This document shows positions 2,174 to 19,883 of a stretch of 64,000 nucleotides of DNA, one piece after another. The notes beneath the pieces are model-generated. The model worked only from the letters and a program-made list of their open reading frames with translations. It ran no database searches and was not told where the DNA came from. Within the stretch, counting starts at the first letter, position 1. The number at the start of each line of letters is the position of its first letter. The DNA lies in contig KB904821.1 of the NCBI GenBank assembly GCA_000380225.1, positions 1,664,830 through 1,728,829 on the forward strand, given 5' to 3'. The translations under genes and the position numbers were made by a program. Source of the stretch: a filamentous cyanobacterium ESFC-1 (GTDB taxonomy: Bacteria > Cyanobacteriota > Cyanobacteriia > Cyanobacteriales > Spirulinaceae).

Positions 2174-3328
2174 CTAACCTTGAGCAAACACCTTCGATGC
2201 GGCTGCGACTCCTGCACCCGATGTTGCCCCTTCGTAGCCTAATTCGATCAGGGTGGCTTCTAAAGCACCCATAGCCGTGAGGATATCGCGATCGCTCACA
2301 AAGCCTAAATGACCCACCCGGAAGATTTTACCTTTGAGTTCATTTTGACCGCCAGCGAGGGCAATATCGAACTTCTGGCGCATGGTTGAGCGAATCTTCT
2401 CGGCTTCGACATTGAGGGGGGAAACGGCGGTAACGGCGGTACTTCCGTGGCTGTCGGGGGCAAGCAACGGTAAGTTTAACGCCTTCATCCCGGCGCGAGT
2501 GGCATCCCGCAAACGAGCGTGACGAGCGAAAATATTATCTAAGCCTTCAGCCTTCATCATCCCCAAAGCCGCGTGTAAGCCAAACACCAAGTTAACCGGC
2601 GGGGTGAAGGGACTGCTATCTTTCTCTGTGGCTTTGCGATATTTGCCTAAGTCCAAGTAATAGCGGGGTAAATCGGCGGTTTTATAAGCTTCCCAAGCGC
2701 GGGGGCTGACGGCGATGAAACCCAAGCCAGGGGGAATCATGTAGCCTTTTTGGGAACCGGATGCGACGACATCCAAGCCCCACTGATCGATCGGAATGGG
2801 ATAAGCCCCCAAACTGGTGACCGCATCAACGATAATGAGAGCCTCACCGTGGGCTTTAACGTGTTTGTTAATGGTTTCGAGGTCATTGAGTACCCCGGTA
2901 GAGGTTTCTGAGTGGGTAAGAATGACCGCTTTGATTTGTTTTTCCGTGTCGGCTTCGAGTTTTTCGCGGAATTGTTCGGGGTCGAGGGGTTTGCCCCATT
3001 CGGCGGTAACGCGCTCGACTTGTAAGCCATAAGCTTCGCCCACTTCAGCCCAGCGATCGCCAAATTTACCATTACATCCGGCCAAGACGCGATCGCCTTT
3101 TTTCAAGAAGTTAATCATCCCCGCTTCCATGGCCCCAGTGCCACTCACGGTCAGCATCTGCACGTTATGTTGCGTTTGGTGCAACCAGTTCAAATCCGCC
3201 GTGACTTCGGCTTGTAGCTTGCTGTAGGGCTTACTGCGGTGACCAATGGGGTGTTGCGCCATGGCCAATAATACCTTTTCGGGTACCGGAGTCGGCCCGG
3301 GAATCATTAACTGATGCTTGCCTTCCAT
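2174..3328 (-). CDS. PLP-dependent class V aminotransferase (serine/alanine-glyoxylate type)
   Basis: A 384-residue fold-type I PLP enzyme of the alanine-glyoxylate/serine-pyruvate aminotransferase group. In older cyanobacterial annotation it is called the 'soluble hydrogenase 42 kDa subunit', a name now seen as misleading. Seen: the N-terminal IPGPTPVPEKV substrate motif, the SGTGAMEA phosphate-binding turn near 62-69, Asp168 in IIVDAVTS, and the Schiff-base Lys194 in SGSQKGYM. The C-terminal RVGHLGFVSDRDI is typical. Such enzymes handle glyoxylate from photorespiration, forming glycine or serine. Transcribed alone, with a heptamer repeat about 95 bases before the start. The exact amino donor is not decidable from sequence. 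Confidence 0.9.
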   Translation of the reverse strand: MEGKHQLMIPGPTPVPEKVLLAMAQHPIGHRSKPYSKLQAEVTADLNWLHQTQHNVQMLTVSGTGAMEAGMINFLKKGDRVLAGCNGKFGDRWAEVGEAYGLQVERVTAEWGKPLDPEQFREKLEADTEKQIKAVILTHSETSTGVLNDLETINKHVKAHGEALIIVDAVTSLGAYPIPIDQWGLDVVASGSQKGYMIPPGLGFIAVSPRAWEAYKTADLPRYYLDLGKYRKATEKDSSPFTPPVNLVFGLHAALGMMKAEGLDNIFARHARLRDATRAGMKALNLPLLAPDSHGSTAVTAVSPLNVEAEKIRSTMRQKFDIALAGGQNELKGKIFRVGHLGFVSDRDILTAMGALEATLIELGYEGATSGAGVAAASKVFAQG

Positions 3329-3424
3329 AAGAATTTGCTCCCTATAAAATTTACCGTCATAAAAATTTAATCAAAGCACGTTTAATCCTATATCAACCCG
3401 CGATCGCTCATCAAGAATTTGTTT

Positions 3425-3647
3425 TTGGTTGTTGGTTGTTGGTTGTTGGTTATTGGTTATTGGGCGGGGAAACCCCGCCCCTACAAGCCGATTGCCGATT
3501 GCCTACAGCACGCGCTGCCCAAGACCCACTGCCCAAAACACTGATTACTGATAACTGATAACTGATGACTGAAGAAACCCCCCGACTGCCGAGGAGCCGA
3601 TTGCTGATTGCCCCTTAGAAGCTGATAACTGATGACTGATAACTGAC
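3425..3647. repeat. Composite heptamer-repeat cassette (TTGGTTR - hairpin - GCCGATT - CTGCCCA - ACTGATR)
   Basis: In order on the plus strand: TTGGTTR units (3425-3463), a GCGGGGAAACCCCGC hairpin and CCCCTACA, GCCGATT copies, CTGCCCA-like units, ACTGATA/ACTGATG units, then a second GCCGATT and ACTGATR set. The last ACTGATR unit touches the stop codon of the DUF5340-like gene at 3648. The TTGGTTR end lies about 95 bases upstream of the aminotransferase start. Nearly all parts have 7-bp periodicity. Confidence 0.88.
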
Positions 3648-3908
3648 CTAACTCGGAGGGGGCAAAACTGAGTTGACTTGTTGAGTGACTTGATTAAGGG
3701 CCCAGCGATACTCATAAGGGATGTCGAGGCGATCGCAATGGGATTCGAGTTGTTTTTGTTGCGCGAGGGCTTTTCGCAACGTCGCGATTAACTGTTGGAC
3801 TTGAGCGCGAATGGCGGGGTTTTGACCCGCAGCAAAGGCGGTTTGACGCTCCAAAACTTGTAGTAACAGTTCATAGTGAATATGAGACGGTAAAGGAATT
3901 TGCTCCAT
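3648..3908 (-). CDS. Small conserved protein, DUF5340-like
   Basis: An 86-residue, mostly helical protein starting MEQIPLPSHIHYELLLQVLE and containing a QVQQLIATLRKALAQQK helix. I recognise it as resembling the cyanobacterial DUF5340 family, which has no assigned function. It lies 54 bases downstream of trpC on the same strand and is probably co-transcribed with it, although no link to tryptophan synthesis is known to me. Its stop codon directly abuts an ACTGATR repeat array. Confidence 0.65.
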   Translation of the reverse strand: MEQIPLPSHIHYELLLQVLERQTAFAAGQNPAIRAQVQQLIATLRKALAQQKQLESHCDRLDIPYEYRWALNQVTQQVNSVLPPPS

Positions 3909-3962
3909 AAAGCGATTTTATCGGCGAAAGAATGGGGAAACTCCCGTAAAATTTGGAAACCT

Positions 3963-4847
3963 TCACGCTGCAAATAAGTTCGCGATCGCCTGGGCTGGAT
4001 CGTCTTGTTTAACGAGAGATTCGCCAATTAAGACGGCTTTAGCTCCTGCTGCGCGGACTTGCTTGAGATCGTTGGCGGTGTGTAATCCTGACTCACTTAC
4101 AATTAAAATATCTTTTTCTTGTAATTGAGATTGTCGAGCCGCGAGTAAATTGTGAGTCGTGGCTAAATCCACCGAGAAGTTTTCCAAATTGCGGTTATTT
4201 ATACCTACTAGATTAACGCCTTCGATGGCTAAGACGCGATCTAATTCGGCTAAACTATGAACTTCGATCAAAGCCGCCATGCCCAAGCCTTGCAAAATTT
4301 TGAGAAAATAGCGTAAATCTTGGTCGCTGAGAATCGCCGCAATCAACAGCACCGCATCGGCTCCAGCGATTCGGGCTTTAAAGATTTGATAGGGGTAAAT
4401 AATAAATTCTTTGCACAACAAGGGCAAGTCTACGGCTTGACGCACTTGGGCTAAATATTCAAAGCTGCCTTGGAAAAACTCGCGATCGGTTAAAACTGAA
4501 AGACAACTTGCGCCCCCCTTTTCATAAGCTTGCGCGATCGCAACCGGATCGAAGTCTTCTCGAATCACCCCTTTACTCGGTGAGGCTTTCTTGACTTCGG
4601 CAATCAAGGCGGGTTGGGTTTTCTGGGCTTTGAGTGCGCCGATAAAGTCGCGCGGTGGTGCCAGATTAACTATTTGCTTGCGTAACTCTAACAACGGCAA
4701 GCGATCGCGCATTTGTTCGACCTCTACCTCTTTATGCCAGACAATTTTCTCTAGAATATTACGCGGCTCGGCATCCGGTACTTTGACTTCGTACTGCAAG
4801 ATGTCTACGTTGACATTCCGCGCGGGGGGTTTTCTACGAATTTGCAT
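3963..4847 (-). CDS. trpC: Indole-3-glycerol phosphate synthase
   Basis: A 294-residue TIM-barrel enzyme that closes CdRP to indole-3-glycerol phosphate in tryptophan synthesis. Seen: the [15 protein letters not shown] strand with catalytic Glu84/Lys86, LLCKEFII with Lys146, the [13 protein letters not shown] strand, [11 protein letters not shown], and the C-terminal SESGL and LIGESLVK phosphate-binding turns. The first 45 residues, including [21 protein letters not shown], are the extension normal in cyanobacterial TrpC. That fixes the start at the ATG at 4845-4847. The start is striking: the heptamer array ends only five bases upstream, so the mRNA leader is (CCAACAA)n followed by AAA and AUG, with no Shine-Dalgarno sequence. 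Confidence 0.97.
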
Positions 4848-5128
4848 TTTTGTTGTTGGTTGTTGGTTGTTGGTTGTTGGTTGTTGGTTGTTGGTTGTTG
4901 GTTATTGGTTATTGGTTGTTGGTTGTTGGTTATTGGTTGTTGGTTGTTGGTTATTGGTTGTTGGTTGTTGGTTGTTGGTTGTTGGTTGTTGGTTGTTGGT
5001 TGTTGGTTATTGGTTGTTGGTTGTTGGTTGTTGGTTGTTGGTTGTTGGTTATTGGGCGGGGAAAAGAGCGCCCCTACACGCTCACTGCCCAAAAACTGAT
5101 AACTGATGACTGTTGACTGATGACTGAA
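4848..5128. repeat. Composite repeat cassette filling the lpdA-trpC spacer; 29 TTGGTTR heptamers
   Basis: The whole interval from the trpC start codon to the lpdA stop codon is repeat. Bases 4853-5055 are 29 tandem TTGGTTG/TTGGTTA units with no phase slip. Then come a degenerate copy of the GCGGGG...CGCCCCTACA element, CTGCCCA-like units, and ACTGATR units that end at the lpdA stop codon (5129). On the strand of both genes it runs from the lpdA stop to the trpC start. Confidence 0.93.
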
Positions 5129-6556
5129 TTAAACCGCCACTTTTGCCCGCTTGTAGGCTTCGTCAAGGACTTCGGAGAGGGTGGGGTGGGTGTGGACGTT
5201 GAAGGCAAGTTCTTGGACGGGTTTGCGCTCGGCGATCGCGTTGGCGGCTTCTTGGATCAGGTCAGAAGCGTGAATGCCGATAATGTGAACGCCGAGTAAT
5301 TCTCCGGTATCTTGGCGATAAATCACTTTGGCCATGCCGTCGGTTTCTCCTTCGGCTAACGCCTTAGAATTGCCCTTGAAGTAGGTTTTGACCGAGGCCA
5401 CCTCAAAACCTGCATTTTTGCCTAACTCTTGCGCTGAAGGCTCGGTAAGCCCCACATAGCTAATCTCTGGGTGGGTGAAGGCGGCGGCGGGGATGCTGTT
5501 GTAGTCTACGACTTTTTCGCGACCGCAGATGTTTTCGATGGCGACAATGCCTTGGGCTGAAGCGGCATGGGCTAACATCATTCTGCCGGTTGCATCCCCA
5601 ATCGCCCAGAGGTTGGGGACGGGTTTATTGTCTAACACCACTTGCATTTTGTCGTTGACTGCAATAAAGCCGCGACGGTCGGTTTGTATGCCAACATTTT
5701 CTAAGCCGATGTCTTTGGTGTAGGGAATGCGACCTGTGGCGATTAAACAAGCGTCTACTTCTAAGGTTTCGATGGTTTCTTTAGTTTTTGCGTCAGCGAG
5801 TTCGATTTTGACGGGATAGCCGGGGGTAACTTTTTTAGCCAATGTGCCGCTATGGGTTTCGATGTCGCGGGGTTTGATTAAAACTCGTTCGGCAATTTTA
5901 GCAATTTCGGGGTCGAAGCCGGGCATGAGGTTGTCGAGGGCTTCGATCATGGTAATTTCTGACCCTAGGGCTGAGTAAATATCGGAAAATTCTAAGCCGA
6001 TGTAACCGCTTCCCACAATGGCGATCCAATCGGGGACAGAGTTCAGTTTGATTGCGTCGTCGCTGGTGTAAACGGTTTTGCCGTCTACTTCTATACCGGG
6101 AGGGACGAAGGGAATTGAACCCGTCGATATAATAATATTTTCAGCCGAAAGGGTGCGATCGCCCTCGTCAGTTTTGACGGTGACTTTTTGGGGCCCGGCG
6201 ACTTTTCCCCAACCGCGAATGGTATCAACGCCAAGGCGTTTGAGGCTGTTGGTGAGGTCGCCTCTGATTTTATCGACTAAGTTACTAGCATGGGACGCGA
6301 TCGCCCCCGCATCTACGCCAATTTGACCGACTTGAATCCCCATGGCTGCCAAGTGATGCTGGTCTTGCAATTCTCGCACTCGTCCTGATGCAGCCAGCAA
6401 GGCTTTGGAAGGAATACAACCGCGATTGACACAAGTTCCCCCCATGTCTCCAGCTTCGATGATGGCTGTCCGCAAACCGCATTTTACCGCGTGTAATGCC
6501 GCCCCATGACCGCCAACACCCGCACCGATAATCACTAAATCGTAATCAAAACTCAT
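5129..6556 (-). CDS. lpdA: Dihydrolipoyl dehydrogenase
   Basis: A 475-residue FAD disulfide oxidoreductase, the E3 component of pyruvate dehydrogenase and possibly of the glycine cleavage system. Seen: the FAD site [16 protein letters not shown] (about 8-23), the redox pair Cys42/Cys47 in [16 protein letters not shown], the NAD site [13 protein letters not shown], the second FAD motif [13 protein letters not shown], and the catalytic His457-Glu462 of HTHPTLSE. Length and motifs are those of cyanobacterial PDH E3. No other PDH gene is near. The gene ends directly against an ACTGATR array, and trpC follows on the same strand after 281 bases of repeat. Confidence 0.96.
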
Positions 6557-6774
6557 CTTTGTTATTACTAATATTGTTGTCTGTCTACTAGCCGTAGTAT
6601 GCCATTCTGGTGACCTTGACTGGGAATGTCCCGATCAAAATCTTGTTGTCTGCCTTGAGCGACAAAATGAACTTAATAAATCGTCACCAGTTTTTGATTT
6701 AAACACATTACGGATTAGCGTGGAGATAGGGTGTGTCAGGGATGGGATGAGAGGAGCAACCAAAAAAACCCGTT

Positions 6775-17049: not shown

Positions 17050-17061
17050 TCCCCATATTTT

Positions 17062-17126
17062 AGAACCCCGGTTTCTTATTTGCTGATCCAATAAAGTTAG
17101 CATTTCACTTTAGAAACCGGGGTTCT
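17062..17126. repeat. AGAACCCCGGTTTCT inverted repeat
   Basis: AGAACCCCGGTTTCT at 17062-17076 and its exact complement AGAAACCGGGGTTCT at 17112-17126 form a 15-bp stem with a 35-base loop after pyrC. The same motif recurs, singly or as an inverted pair, at about 2138, 19843, 25790/25840, 52603, 53226 and 58261, always outside genes and mostly after stop codons. It is probably a dispersed miniature element used as a terminator. Confidence 0.75.
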
Positions 17127-17524: not shown

Positions 17525-17854
17525 TTAACCCTCAGAAGCATCACGAATACGCTGCTGGAAGCGGGCTATAATTTCAGGACTCAACTCTGCTTCTGGTTCA
17601 ACGACTTCTCGACGCTCCAAAATAGAATTAACTTCGCTTAAAGATGCTTGTCCTAACTTGTTAACTAAAGCCTGAAAATCTTGCTGTTGTTGGTTAACTT
17701 CGTCAATCGGTGTAGTATGAACTGTATAAGCCATTGTGACTTGGCGCGTCAAAGCATAGACGATATATTGGTTTAAAGAAACGCCTTCACTCTGGGCTAA
17801 ATGAGTTAACTGTTGGTGTAATGTTTCGGGTAATCGTAATGTGAATCGGCTCAT
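17525..17854 (-). CDS. Ribbon-helix-helix antitoxin (HicB-like C-terminal type)
   Basis: A 109-residue protein starting MSRFTLRLPETLHQQLTHLAQSEGVSLNQYIVYAL, a clear ribbon-helix-helix DNA-binding domain of the kind found in HicB and other type II antitoxins. The rest is acidic and helical (residues about 50-109), suited to binding the toxin. It begins two bases after the stop codon of the PIN toxin gene upstream on the same strand, so the order is toxin first, antitoxin second. Likely binds its own promoter upstream of the toxin gene near 18292-18330. Confidence 0.82.
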   Translation of the reverse strand: MSRFTLRLPETLHQQLTHLAQSEGVSLNQYIVYALTRQVTMAYTVHTTPIDEVNQQQQDFQALVNKLGQASLSEVNSILERREVVEPEAELSPEIIARFQQRIRDASEG

Positions 17855-17856
17855 GA

Positions 17857-18291
17857 TTAATTTCCTTCAAGTGCTATTTGGGTTACTAATTGAGTCGGAG
17901 TCAATACTTGTAAACCTAGAGAATCTCTGGCTTTTCTAAAGTCACGGATATTAGAGGTTGCGATCGCGGCATTAGCATTCATGGCACAATCAATTACTAG
18001 ATCGTCTCCTGCGTCGGGTGAAGTGGGTCGCCAGGAATAGTAAATTGTCGTGAATTGAGATTGACTTAGTAGAAGGGCTAAAACAGGTTGCAATTCCTGC
18101 CAACGTACTTCTGAAAGTTTACGGGATAAAACGTCTTCATACTCGTAGGCAAGTGCATTAGAAATATGAACCTGAATTAAGCCAGCTAACCAGGCATCAA
18201 TAACGAAACCCGCTGCACTACCTTGTTTCGTTAAGCCCTCAAATACAACGTTCGTATCAATAACGATACGCAACAGAGATGAAGCAAACAT
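17857..18291 (-). CDS. PIN-domain toxin of a type II toxin-antitoxin pair
   Basis: A 144-residue PIN-fold ribonuclease of the 'putative toxin-antitoxin system toxin component, PIN family' type. Seen: RIVIDTNVVFEGL with the first catalytic Asp, an internal Glu in ALAYEYEDVL, DAGDDLVIDCAMNANAAIATSNIRDF with the later acidic residues, and a C-terminal GLQVLTPTQL. By family knowledge it would cleave RNA when free of the antitoxin encoded just downstream. The upstream region is immediately adjacent to a second module and the 118-bp repeat. Confidence 0.85.
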   Translation of the reverse strand: MFASSLLRIVIDTNVVFEGLTKQGSAAGFVIDAWLAGLIQVHISNALAYEYEDVLSRKLSEVRWQELQPVLALLLSQSQFTTIYYSWRPTSPDAGDDLVIDCAMNANAAIATSNIRDFRKARDSLGLQVLTPTQLVTQIALEGN

Positions 18292-18358
18292 GATGCTATT
18301 ATAGCACCATATTCGGTGTCACACATACACGAAAAATAATATTGAAAACGATCGTTAC

Positions 18359-18476
18359 AGCAAATATAAACTTAATATGAACTCCGATCCCTACAATTTG
18401 CAACGTTTTTTAGAAGCGCAAGCCATGAACTACGATCGCGCTTTAGCTGAACTTAAAGCAGGGGAAAAGCGATCGC
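18359..18476 (+). repeat. 118-bp direct repeat, copy A
   Basis: Bases 18359-18476 and 19262-19379 are the same length with no gaps and differ at nine positions (about 92% identical); the first 60 bases are identical. They hold the start region and first 33 codons of the DUF1810 gene. Both copies end in the HIP1 site GCGATCGC, after which the sequences diverge completely. Between them lies a complete PIN toxin-antitoxin module. Confidence 0.92.
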
Positions 18477-18505
18477 GTTCTCTTAACTCAGGCGTTTTTG
18501 GCTAA
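18377..18505 (+). pseudogene. Truncated 5' copy of the DUF1810 gene
   Basis: From the ATG at 18377 the frame reads MNSDPYNLQRFLEAQAMNYD and follows the intact gene at 19280 for 33 codons up to AGEKRS. It then runs into unrelated sequence and stops at TAA 18503-18505 (42 codons). It is the stump left by the rearrangement that placed the toxin-antitoxin module in front of the intact copy. Confidence 0.85.
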
Positions 18506-18548
18506 GGTAAAATAAATTAAACACACTGTATTTACCCGCGATCGCGTT

Positions 18549-18824
18549 ATGTCTGACACAACAGTAGAGCGACAAAATCTTATTGAAGTAGTCAACGATT
18601 TGCCCGATGAGGTTTTGGTAGAACTCGCAAATTTCCTCGATTACTTACGATATAAAGCTAGTCAACGTCCAGAAATCGCTACTTCTGAGCAAAATTTTCT
18701 ACTAACTGTTGCAGGTTTAGGTGAATCTGGGCAACAAGATATTTCTGAGTCTGACGAAGAGATACTACAAAATGAAATAGACTCCATTTCCGGTTGGAGC
18801 AACAAGCTGAACAAGCGTCCATGA
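18549..18824 (+). CDS. Antitoxin of a PIN toxin module (DUF2281-like)
   Basis: A 91-residue protein whose first half, ERQNLIEVVNDLPDEVLVELANFLDYLRYKAS, has the LPDEVLxELxxFLDYLRYK pattern of DUF2281-type VapB antitoxins in cyanobacteria. The acidic second half (ISESDEEILQNEIDSISGWS) would embrace the toxin. Its stop codon overlaps the toxin start by the tetranucleotide ATGA at 18821-18824, a sign of translational coupling. The whole module lies between two 118-bp direct repeats. Confidence 0.8.
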   Translation: MSDTTVERQNLIEVVNDLPDEVLVELANFLDYLRYKASQRPEIATSEQNFLLTVAGLGESGQQDISESDEEILQNEIDSISGWSNKLNKRP

Positions 18825-19234
18825 CAGCGATACTCGATACTAGCTTTTTGTTTGCCTTAACCGATCGAGACGATCGTAATCATCAAAGGGTAGTTAGGAT
18901 TGCTCAAAGCCTGAATGAGCCATTGGTACTTCCTGTAGTTGTTTTACCCGAAATCTGTTATCTCATTGCATCCAGATTGGGACATCAAGCAATGCGCCAA
19001 TTTGTGTCTAGTATATCACTGAATACGGTTCAGATTGAATCTCTAACCCGGCAGGATTTGGTACGAGTACATGAGATTTTGGAGCGGTATGCTGATAATC
19101 AACTTGATTTTACAGATGCCGCGATCGTTGCTATTGCCGAAAGGCTAAATATCACTCGTGTTTATACACTCGATCGTCGAGATTTTTCGATCGTTCGTCC
19201 AAGTCACTGCGATTACTTTGAGTTATTTCCTTAA
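18821..19234 (+). CDS. PIN-domain ribonuclease toxin (VapC-like)
   Basis: About 137 residues from the ATG at 18821, which overlaps the antitoxin stop; a longer frame from 18794 is less likely. Seen: the first acidic residue in MTAILDTSFLFALTDRDD, a Glu in VLPEICYLIASR, and LDFTDAAIVAIAERLNITRVYTLDRRDF with the remaining acidic residues of the PIN active site. The family cleaves tRNA or rRNA. The module with its regulatory region occupies 18477-19261, exactly between direct repeats, and is likely a recent arrival or tandem rearrangement product. Confidence 0.88.
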   Translation: MTAILDTSFLFALTDRDDRNHQRVVRIAQSLNEPLVLPVVVLPEICYLIASRLGHQAMRQFVSSISLNTVQIESLTRQDLVRVHEILERYADNQLDFTDAAIVAIAERLNITRVYTLDRRDFSIVRPSHCDYFELFP

Positions 19235-19261
19235 ATCACTTTAATCCGGGTCATTGCTGAT

Positions 19262-19379
19262 AGCAAATATAAACTTAATATGAACTCCGATCCCTACAAT
19301 TTGCAACGTTTTTTAGAAGCCCAAGCAATGAACTACGATGATGCTTTAGGCGAACTTAAAGCGGGTGAAAAGCGATCGC
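19262..19379 (+). repeat. 118-bp direct repeat, copy B (inside the intact DUF1810 gene)
   Basis: The intact copy of the repeat described at 18359. It spans 18 bases of leader and the first 33 codons of the DUF1810 gene. Confidence 0.92.
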
Positions 19380-19714: not shown

Positions 19715-19883
19715 TTTAGAAACCGTTTATCTGATTCGCAAAACTACACATTTCCAGAGCTTACGAAAACGGTTTGGTGAAACAATCCACAAAAAACCCG
19801 ATTTCTAAGGTCACATTCTAACTTAATAAAATGAACCAACTAGAAACCGGGGTTCTGAATTAAAACCTTTCCTGGGGATATAG

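Follow-up and report, generated by a model that had tools for sequence, protein, structure and literature searches.

A putative toxin–antitoxin module between 118-bp copies of a host gene end in a filamentous cyanobacterium, and comparable frames with HIP1 as a frequent junction in other Cyanobacteriales

Introduction

How does a small toxin–antitoxin module come to lie between two copies of the beginning of a host gene when no transposase accompanies it? The question is raised by a locus of the filamentous cyanobacterium ESFC-1, situated in a window of 64,000 nucleotides (the whole stretch of DNA that was analysed), where a PIN-domain module separates a truncated and a complete copy of the 5' end of a DUF1810 gene. 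HIP1, the sequence at which the similarity of the two copies ends, is a hyperabundant cyanobacterial octamer whose function is disputed. The initial annotation considered that a module had been inserted and its target duplicated, or that recombination had occurred at HIP1, with the target gene being repaired on one side.

Precedents exist for parts of this arrangement. Restriction–modification (RM) systems insert with long, variable target duplications according to the accessible portions of PMC3874152 and PMC3031569, which cite Nobusato 2000 and Furuta 2010 and describe this mode for RM systems only. In Microcystis aeruginosa PCC 7806, a ParE/ParD-like pair is fenced by two identical 152-bp direct repeats, as stated in an excerpt of PMC7935541. 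Excerpts of PMC4390886 and PMC9239245 tie HIP1 to site-specific and illegitimate recombination in cyanobacteria. Here, we analyse the repeat, the unit between its copies and the homologous modules of other cyanobacteria, and weigh the ways in which the locus could have arisen.

Results

The repeat copies and the unit between them

Realignment of the two copies bore out an ungapped match of 118 bp with nine mismatches, at 18418, 18424, 18437-18439, 18447, 18448, 18460 and 18463, well beyond chance (BLAST E 8e-45). The initial 59 bp are free of mismatches, and the final 59 bp hold all nine. No extended similarity was present in the 58 bp compared 5' of both copies. At the other end, the homology stops in both exactly after GCGATCGC, that is, HIP1 (18469-18476 and 19372-19379), as first described; the next base differs, two bases match again, and no similarity follows. 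Because of these two matching bases, the repeat search and BLAST report a length of 121 bp. The module is thus framed by copies of its target in direct orientation and roughly 100 bp long, here 118 bp of the DUF1810 gene. The position of the PIN module between a truncated upstream copy and an intact downstream gene was likewise confirmed (Table 1), and the short upstream ORF still matches PF08837 across 29 positions. A search of the host genome with the DUF1810 protein returned two sites only, which are both copies of the locus, and found no second full DUF1810 gene.

Table 1. Features of the locus, in positions of the window
Feature	Position	Strand	Description
Left target-repeat copy	18359..18476	+	18 bp of leader and first 100 bp of the DUF1810 gene; truncated
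42-aa ORF	18377..18505	+	Begins with the DUF1810 N-terminus; its tail lies in the unit
Unit, putatively inserted, 785 bp	18477..19261	+	782 bp with a repeat length of 121 bp
Module upstream region	18477..18548	+	TAAAAT-containing stretch common to several homologous modules; HIP1 at 18538-18545
Putative antitoxin ORF, 91 aa	18549..18824	+	DUF2281-like (PF10047)
Putative toxin ORF, 137 aa, PIN domain	18821..19234	+	PF01850, 59.1 bits; start is the ATG at 18821
Right target-repeat copy	19262..19379	+	5' end of the complete DUF1810 gene
Complete DUF1810 gene, 144 aa	19280..19714	+	PF08837, E 5e-58

Judged from its sequence, the unit is a putative pair of an antitoxin and a VapC-like PIN toxin. 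The antitoxin ORF lies directly 5' of the toxin ORF and overlaps it by 4 bp, a position and overlap that fit a type II toxin–antitoxin system. Among proteins of solved structure, VapC26 and VapC20 come nearest to the toxin, whose acidic residues D6, E44, D96, D99 and D118 are invariant across eight homologues. The match of the antitoxin to PF10047 (17.1 bits) falls below the cut-off of 26.5, and an NCBIfam search gave no family name for either the antitoxin or DUF1810. A promoter scan of the module upstream region found no sigma-70-like site.

No transposase-size ORF was found between the 118-bp copies, nor any inverted repeat of at least 15 bp at the borders of the unit. With both of these missing and a duplication as long as 118 bp, we rejected a transposon or composite transposon. 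An integron cassette was discarded as well: the borders are formed by different host genes in different genomes rather than by one family of recombination sites, and the downstream sequence of loci L173, L176, L177 and L178 appeared by eye to contain dispersed repeats.

Two further features lie near the locus. A second toxin–antitoxin pair (17525-18291, minus strand) lies directly upstream in the opposite orientation, with a HicB/ribbon-helix-helix antitoxin (17525-17854, minus strand) and a PIN_3 toxin (17857-18291, minus strand). Two 69-nt arms with 75% complementarity (17056-17124 and 19794-19862) flank the toxin–antitoxin region on both sides; they belong to a dispersed repeat that the host genome matches at many places.

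Framed modules in other cyanobacteria

The toxin was used as a query against 388 genomes of the order and had matches in 138 of them (E up to 1e-15). We examined 61 modules, namely our own and the 60 next best by E-value, weaker matches being left aside, and defined a tight frame as direct repeats of at least 50 bp and at least 75% identity around the module. Such frames surrounded 18 of these best-ranked modules, which include orthologous loci and are hence not independent, and only 91 of 14,943 shifted placements (0.6%). Restricting the comparison to loci with at most six repeat pairs left 10 of 48 modules framed, versus 14 of 11,812 shifted placements. A single span test (a repeat pair around the toxin with a gap of at most 1300 bp) was then applied to several families, with 30 loci, one per genome, for each of the control sets: it was positive for 18 of the 61 DUF2281–PIN modules, 4 of 30 HepT, 3 of 30 RelE/ParE and none of 30 loci of the housekeeping control MsrA. 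The remaining 43 of the 61 modules, among them the bare module of G259 described below, had no tight frame.

Around half of the framed modules lie between dispersed-looking repeats, namely those of G067 and G045 and, within family f33, the majority of the framed ones. In others the repeat copies part of a gene, and the gene differs from genome to genome. The frame is made of a CRR42-like gene, named by Pfam, in G054 (277 bp, 94.6% identity, the complete gene being the right copy), of OsmC in G243 (232 bp, 89.2%, complete gene on the left), of an aldehyde dehydrogenase family gene, also named by Pfam, in G210 (76 bp, 98.7%, complete gene on the left) and, in G005, of the terminal part of an MmeI-type enzyme (109 bp, 85.3%); G105, G138 and G145 have gene-type frames from unnamed stretches. 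Two of the 61 modules, in G005 and G045, match the toxin only in part, and the G005 toxin is disrupted, its one-frame match stopping at residue 82. The framed units span 668-953 bp, so that the unit amounts to the operon with its upstream region and little more.

The arrangement of our locus was found in no other genome of the host's family (13 genomes). For G054, the family offered one other genome for comparison. For G210, its own locus is the one match in which the framed gene and the gene that follows the module are covered together, and thus there is no empty site among the matches.

Some modules occur in arrays. In both G005 and G145, the PIN module adjoins a nucleotidyltransferase–HepT pair, with repeat copies between them. 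This, together with the array of G105 described below, suggests that modules entered repeatedly at one site. Locus L201 of G005 (2714-5530, G005:C77) contains toxin–antitoxin modules beyond the 3' end of an MmeI-type restriction–modification gene, and copies of that gene end lie between the modules, giving an array of RM and toxin–antitoxin genes.

Sites with one repeat copy and a bare module

Genomes of two genera, g59 (10 genomes) and g18 (7 genomes), contain counterparts of framed loci with a single copy of the repeat. In G145 (g59), the order is flank, B, module, B, flank, where B is a 73-bp repeat; in G084 of the same genus, a single B lies where both flanks meet, and the flanks are 96.8% (left) and 94.4% (right) identical to those of G145. 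The module is present in G316 and G238, whose left flank is about 92% identical and whose left B is damaged in each. G132 has one B and the left flank only, and in G192, G368, G244, G259 and G272 the left match stops before or inside B. As G084, the closest relative of G145, lacks the module and the more distant G316 and G238 have it, the state of G084 may represent a precise loss. In G316, about 1.2 kb of other DNA lies between the left flank and the module (L398, 299-1500, G316:C165), at the position of the left repeat of G145.

The module of G145 also occurs in G259, at another place and without framing repeats. The homologous stretch (92.7%) begins 11 bp past the left B of G145 and stops 3 bp short of its right B, so that the moving unit is delimited by the repeats.

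In G105 (g18), a 2,969-bp insert that includes the module has a copy of a 61-bp stretch at either end, and G049 of the same genus has one copy of that stretch between flanks that are 96.1% and 98.1% identical. The insert is an array of a PIN pair, other small ORFs and pieces of antitoxin- or toxin-like ORFs, with extra copies of neighbouring sequence between its parts. Single-copy sites are thus known from the pairs G145/G084 and G105/G049, and not from our own locus; they document two states, and the change between these could be a gain or a loss. Together with the homologous modules framed by other host genes, these two congener pairs lend good support to the proposal of module insertion with target duplication.

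DUF1810 loci in other genomes

The initial annotation also suggested comparison with an uninterrupted DUF1810 gene in close relatives. We assembled 90 DUF1810 loci, 10 from relatives and the best 80 of 290 from a search of the genomes' contigs, in which the best identity was 66%. The gene is unbroken, in one match, at 86 of the 90. An uninterrupted gene is thus seen in distant homologues only, no close relatives being among the 90. Neither the toxin nor the antitoxin of the module was found near DUF1810 at any of the 90 loci, within flanks of varying length.

HIP1 at the repeat ends

HIP1 occurs 116 times in the window, versus 1.29 expected, and for that reason a single exact HIP1 end is a modest signal when taken alone. 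Our own locus has HIP1 at the right-hand repeat end and not at both ends. Near the left-hand end, the closest GATC-centred octamer is ACGATCGT at 18348, two changes away from HIP1. When all 18 framed loci with their 22 repeat pairs are taken together, HIP1 is at most 5 bp away from 18 of the 44 ends, compared with 1.77 expected by joint shifting. The eight gene-type cases, chosen by eye from the 18 with the dispersed-repeat families left out, have HIP1 at 7 of 16 ends, compared with 0.83 expected, and none of 20,000 shifts reached seven. Among them, HIP1 is found at both ends in G054 and G105, at one end in G005, G138 and our locus, and at neither end in G243, G210 and G145.

The idea that HIP1 ends are special to toxin–antitoxin frames was not upheld. 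The host genome, with a HIP1 end in 3 of 83 local repeat pairs over 864 kb, was suggestive, but HIP1 also marks an end in 58 of the 153 further repeat pairs at the 61 loci (5 of 26 at repeat-poor loci). Because the octamer is absent from the ends in G210, G243 and G145 and common at the ends of dispersed repeats, HIP1 is a frequent junction that is neither required by nor exclusive to toxin–antitoxin modules. The suggestion of recombination at HIP1 is plausible in view of the ends of the gene-type cases, and it is weakened both by the one matching end out of two at our locus and by the other repeat pairs.

Other repeats and toxin genes in the host genome

The host survey covered 864 kb (40 stretches and the window), and many of its 83 local repeat pairs come from the same tandem or CRISPR-like arrays. 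One such CRISPR-like array, with 37-bp repeats, is found at L293 (1642-2617, G000:C1:3780001-3800000). Another of the 83 pairs is a second duplication of a gene end in this genome. It lies at L287 (G000:C1:2970001-2990000), where a broken ORF is enclosed by a 318-bp repeat with 94% identity (1302-1619 and 2231-2548) that doubles the terminal part of a 280-aa ORF. The latter reads as a putative XRE-type antitoxin; Pfam matched neither the 280-aa ORF nor the broken one. At L272 (G000:C1:945001-965000), a repeat of about 490 bp and 88% identity (1023-1511 and 2470-2961) surrounds a XisI gene (PF08869), and each copy has an ORF read as Uma2-like.

Toxin searches of the host genome matched 16 HepT genes, of which nine were examined, and two RelE/ParE genes, both examined. 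Among these 11 further toxin genes, in 10 stretches, one HepT gene was framed (L449, G000:C1:887241-897528), by a repeat that starts at HIP1 (4508-4600, 5448-5540 and 6572-6665). As it has three local copies, this is probably a dispersed repeat.

Discussion

Origin of the duplication

We regard the insertion of a toxin–antitoxin module with duplication of 118 bp of its target as the probable origin of the locus. The module would have entered at the 5' end of the DUF1810 gene, and the downstream copy would have stayed complete after the insertion. The initial annotation also supposed that the target gene had been repaired on one side; we found no evidence for this, and it is not needed, because the duplication itself leaves one intact copy.

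As to mechanism, HIP1-guided template switching is our tentative proposal, which we hold at somewhat short of an even chance. The joining would occur by illegitimate recombination or by template switching during replication, HIP1 providing a short homology for one of the junctions here and for many of those at other loci. Copying would leave the target, often at HIP1, enter the module and return upstream in the target. The intervening stretch would then be doubled and one working gene kept, an outcome that would survive selection; a forward switch would delete part of the gene, and that outcome would be lost. Recombination between the copies could later excise the module, as is perhaps seen in G084. 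Addiction to the antitoxin would oppose such excision, and this might be why modules are found between repeats of this kind.

Homologous integration is the strongest alternative, although we consider it unlikely. Donor DNA with a DUF1810 5' fragment beside the module would have recombined Campbell-fashion with the resident gene, so that the left copy would be partly a donor allele and the duplication would first have been made in another lineage. The truncated copy has R and A, as in the G048 homologue, and the intact gene has D and G, which agrees with a foreign left copy; at 18463, however, it is the intact gene that is closer to the relatives. The 59-bp identical run also speaks for integration, with p of 0.014 for nine random sites and 0.096 for six codon-level events, but the clustering of mismatches is weak. 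In G105, likewise, the right 61-bp copy is similar to that of G049 and the left one departs from it. Against a donor of this kind stands the finding that none of the 90 DUF1810 loci carries the module within the flanks covered.

An origin in which the entire DUF1810 gene was first duplicated in tandem, and most of the first copy was then deleted between its HIP1 and a position ahead of the module, appears very unlikely. A deletion at HIP1 would agree with the HIP1-linked illegitimate recombination cited in an excerpt of PMC4390886. Yet this sequence of events leaves unexplained why copies of unrelated genes frame homologous modules, why fragments have HIP1 at both ends in G105 and G054, and why congeners have single copies, and the genome holds no second full DUF1810 gene. 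Slightly less probable still is a module that landed between members of a dispersed repeat family: such cases exist (G067, G045, several f33 genomes, and the HIP1-starting repeat around the host HepT gene), but the repeat here is coding, and we rejected this origin for our locus on the two places returned by the DUF1810 protein search.

Relation to known systems

If the locus arose by insertion with target duplication, it works like the RM insertions and is not one of them, since it carries a PIN toxin with a DUF2281-like ORF rather than an RM system. In common with the RM insertions of the accessible parts of PMC3874152 and PMC3031569, it has a putative addiction-type module, no transposase and a target copied into direct repeats roughly 100 bp long; it differs from them in its toxin–antitoxin cargo and in the many repeat ends at HIP1. 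The Microcystis pair resembles it as a cyanobacterial toxin–antitoxin pair tightly framed by direct repeats. As far as the excerpt of PMC7935541 goes, that pair belongs to another toxin family, concerns a single locus and has border repeats with an inner inverted repeat, and the words 'duplication' and 'HIP1' are absent from the text. The PIN/DUF2281 pairs of Synechocystis 6803 have the antitoxin followed by the PIN toxin, as here (PMC4963859, in part); that text contains none of the terms 'direct repeat', 'flanked', 'target duplication' or 'HIP1'. Junctions at GCGATCGC are shared with the HIP1-associated recombination of PMC4390886 and PMC9239245, whose accessible passages concern plasmid recombination, excision at cloned sites, inversion and repeat insertion, and no toxin–antitoxin modules. 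In a literature search that covered few subscription papers, toxin–antitoxin insertion was not tied to host-gene duplication or to HIP1.

On our best reading, insertion with long target duplication, a mode known for RM systems, would here apply to toxin–antitoxin modules, with HIP1 as a frequent junction. This bears on how toxin–antitoxin modules move without a transposase. Each long target duplication would be a footprint, legible in the sequence, of one insertion event, and such events become testable through congeners that have a single repeat copy. One prediction is that recombination between the repeats restores the gene and is counter-selected for as long as the toxin is active.

A broader view, which we find doubtful though worth stating, is that the small toxin–antitoxin operons of cyanobacteria form a transposase-free mobile class. 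Such operons would spread by template switching at HIP1, leave long duplications together with an intact gene copy, build up arrays at the same site and be kept by addiction even though the repeats allow precise loss. The arrays of G105, G005 and G145, with modules separated by copies of host gene ends, would be a product of this behaviour. In that case, selfish modules would use HIP1 as a landing site and, if it is a preferred junction, this disputed octamer would gain a testable role.
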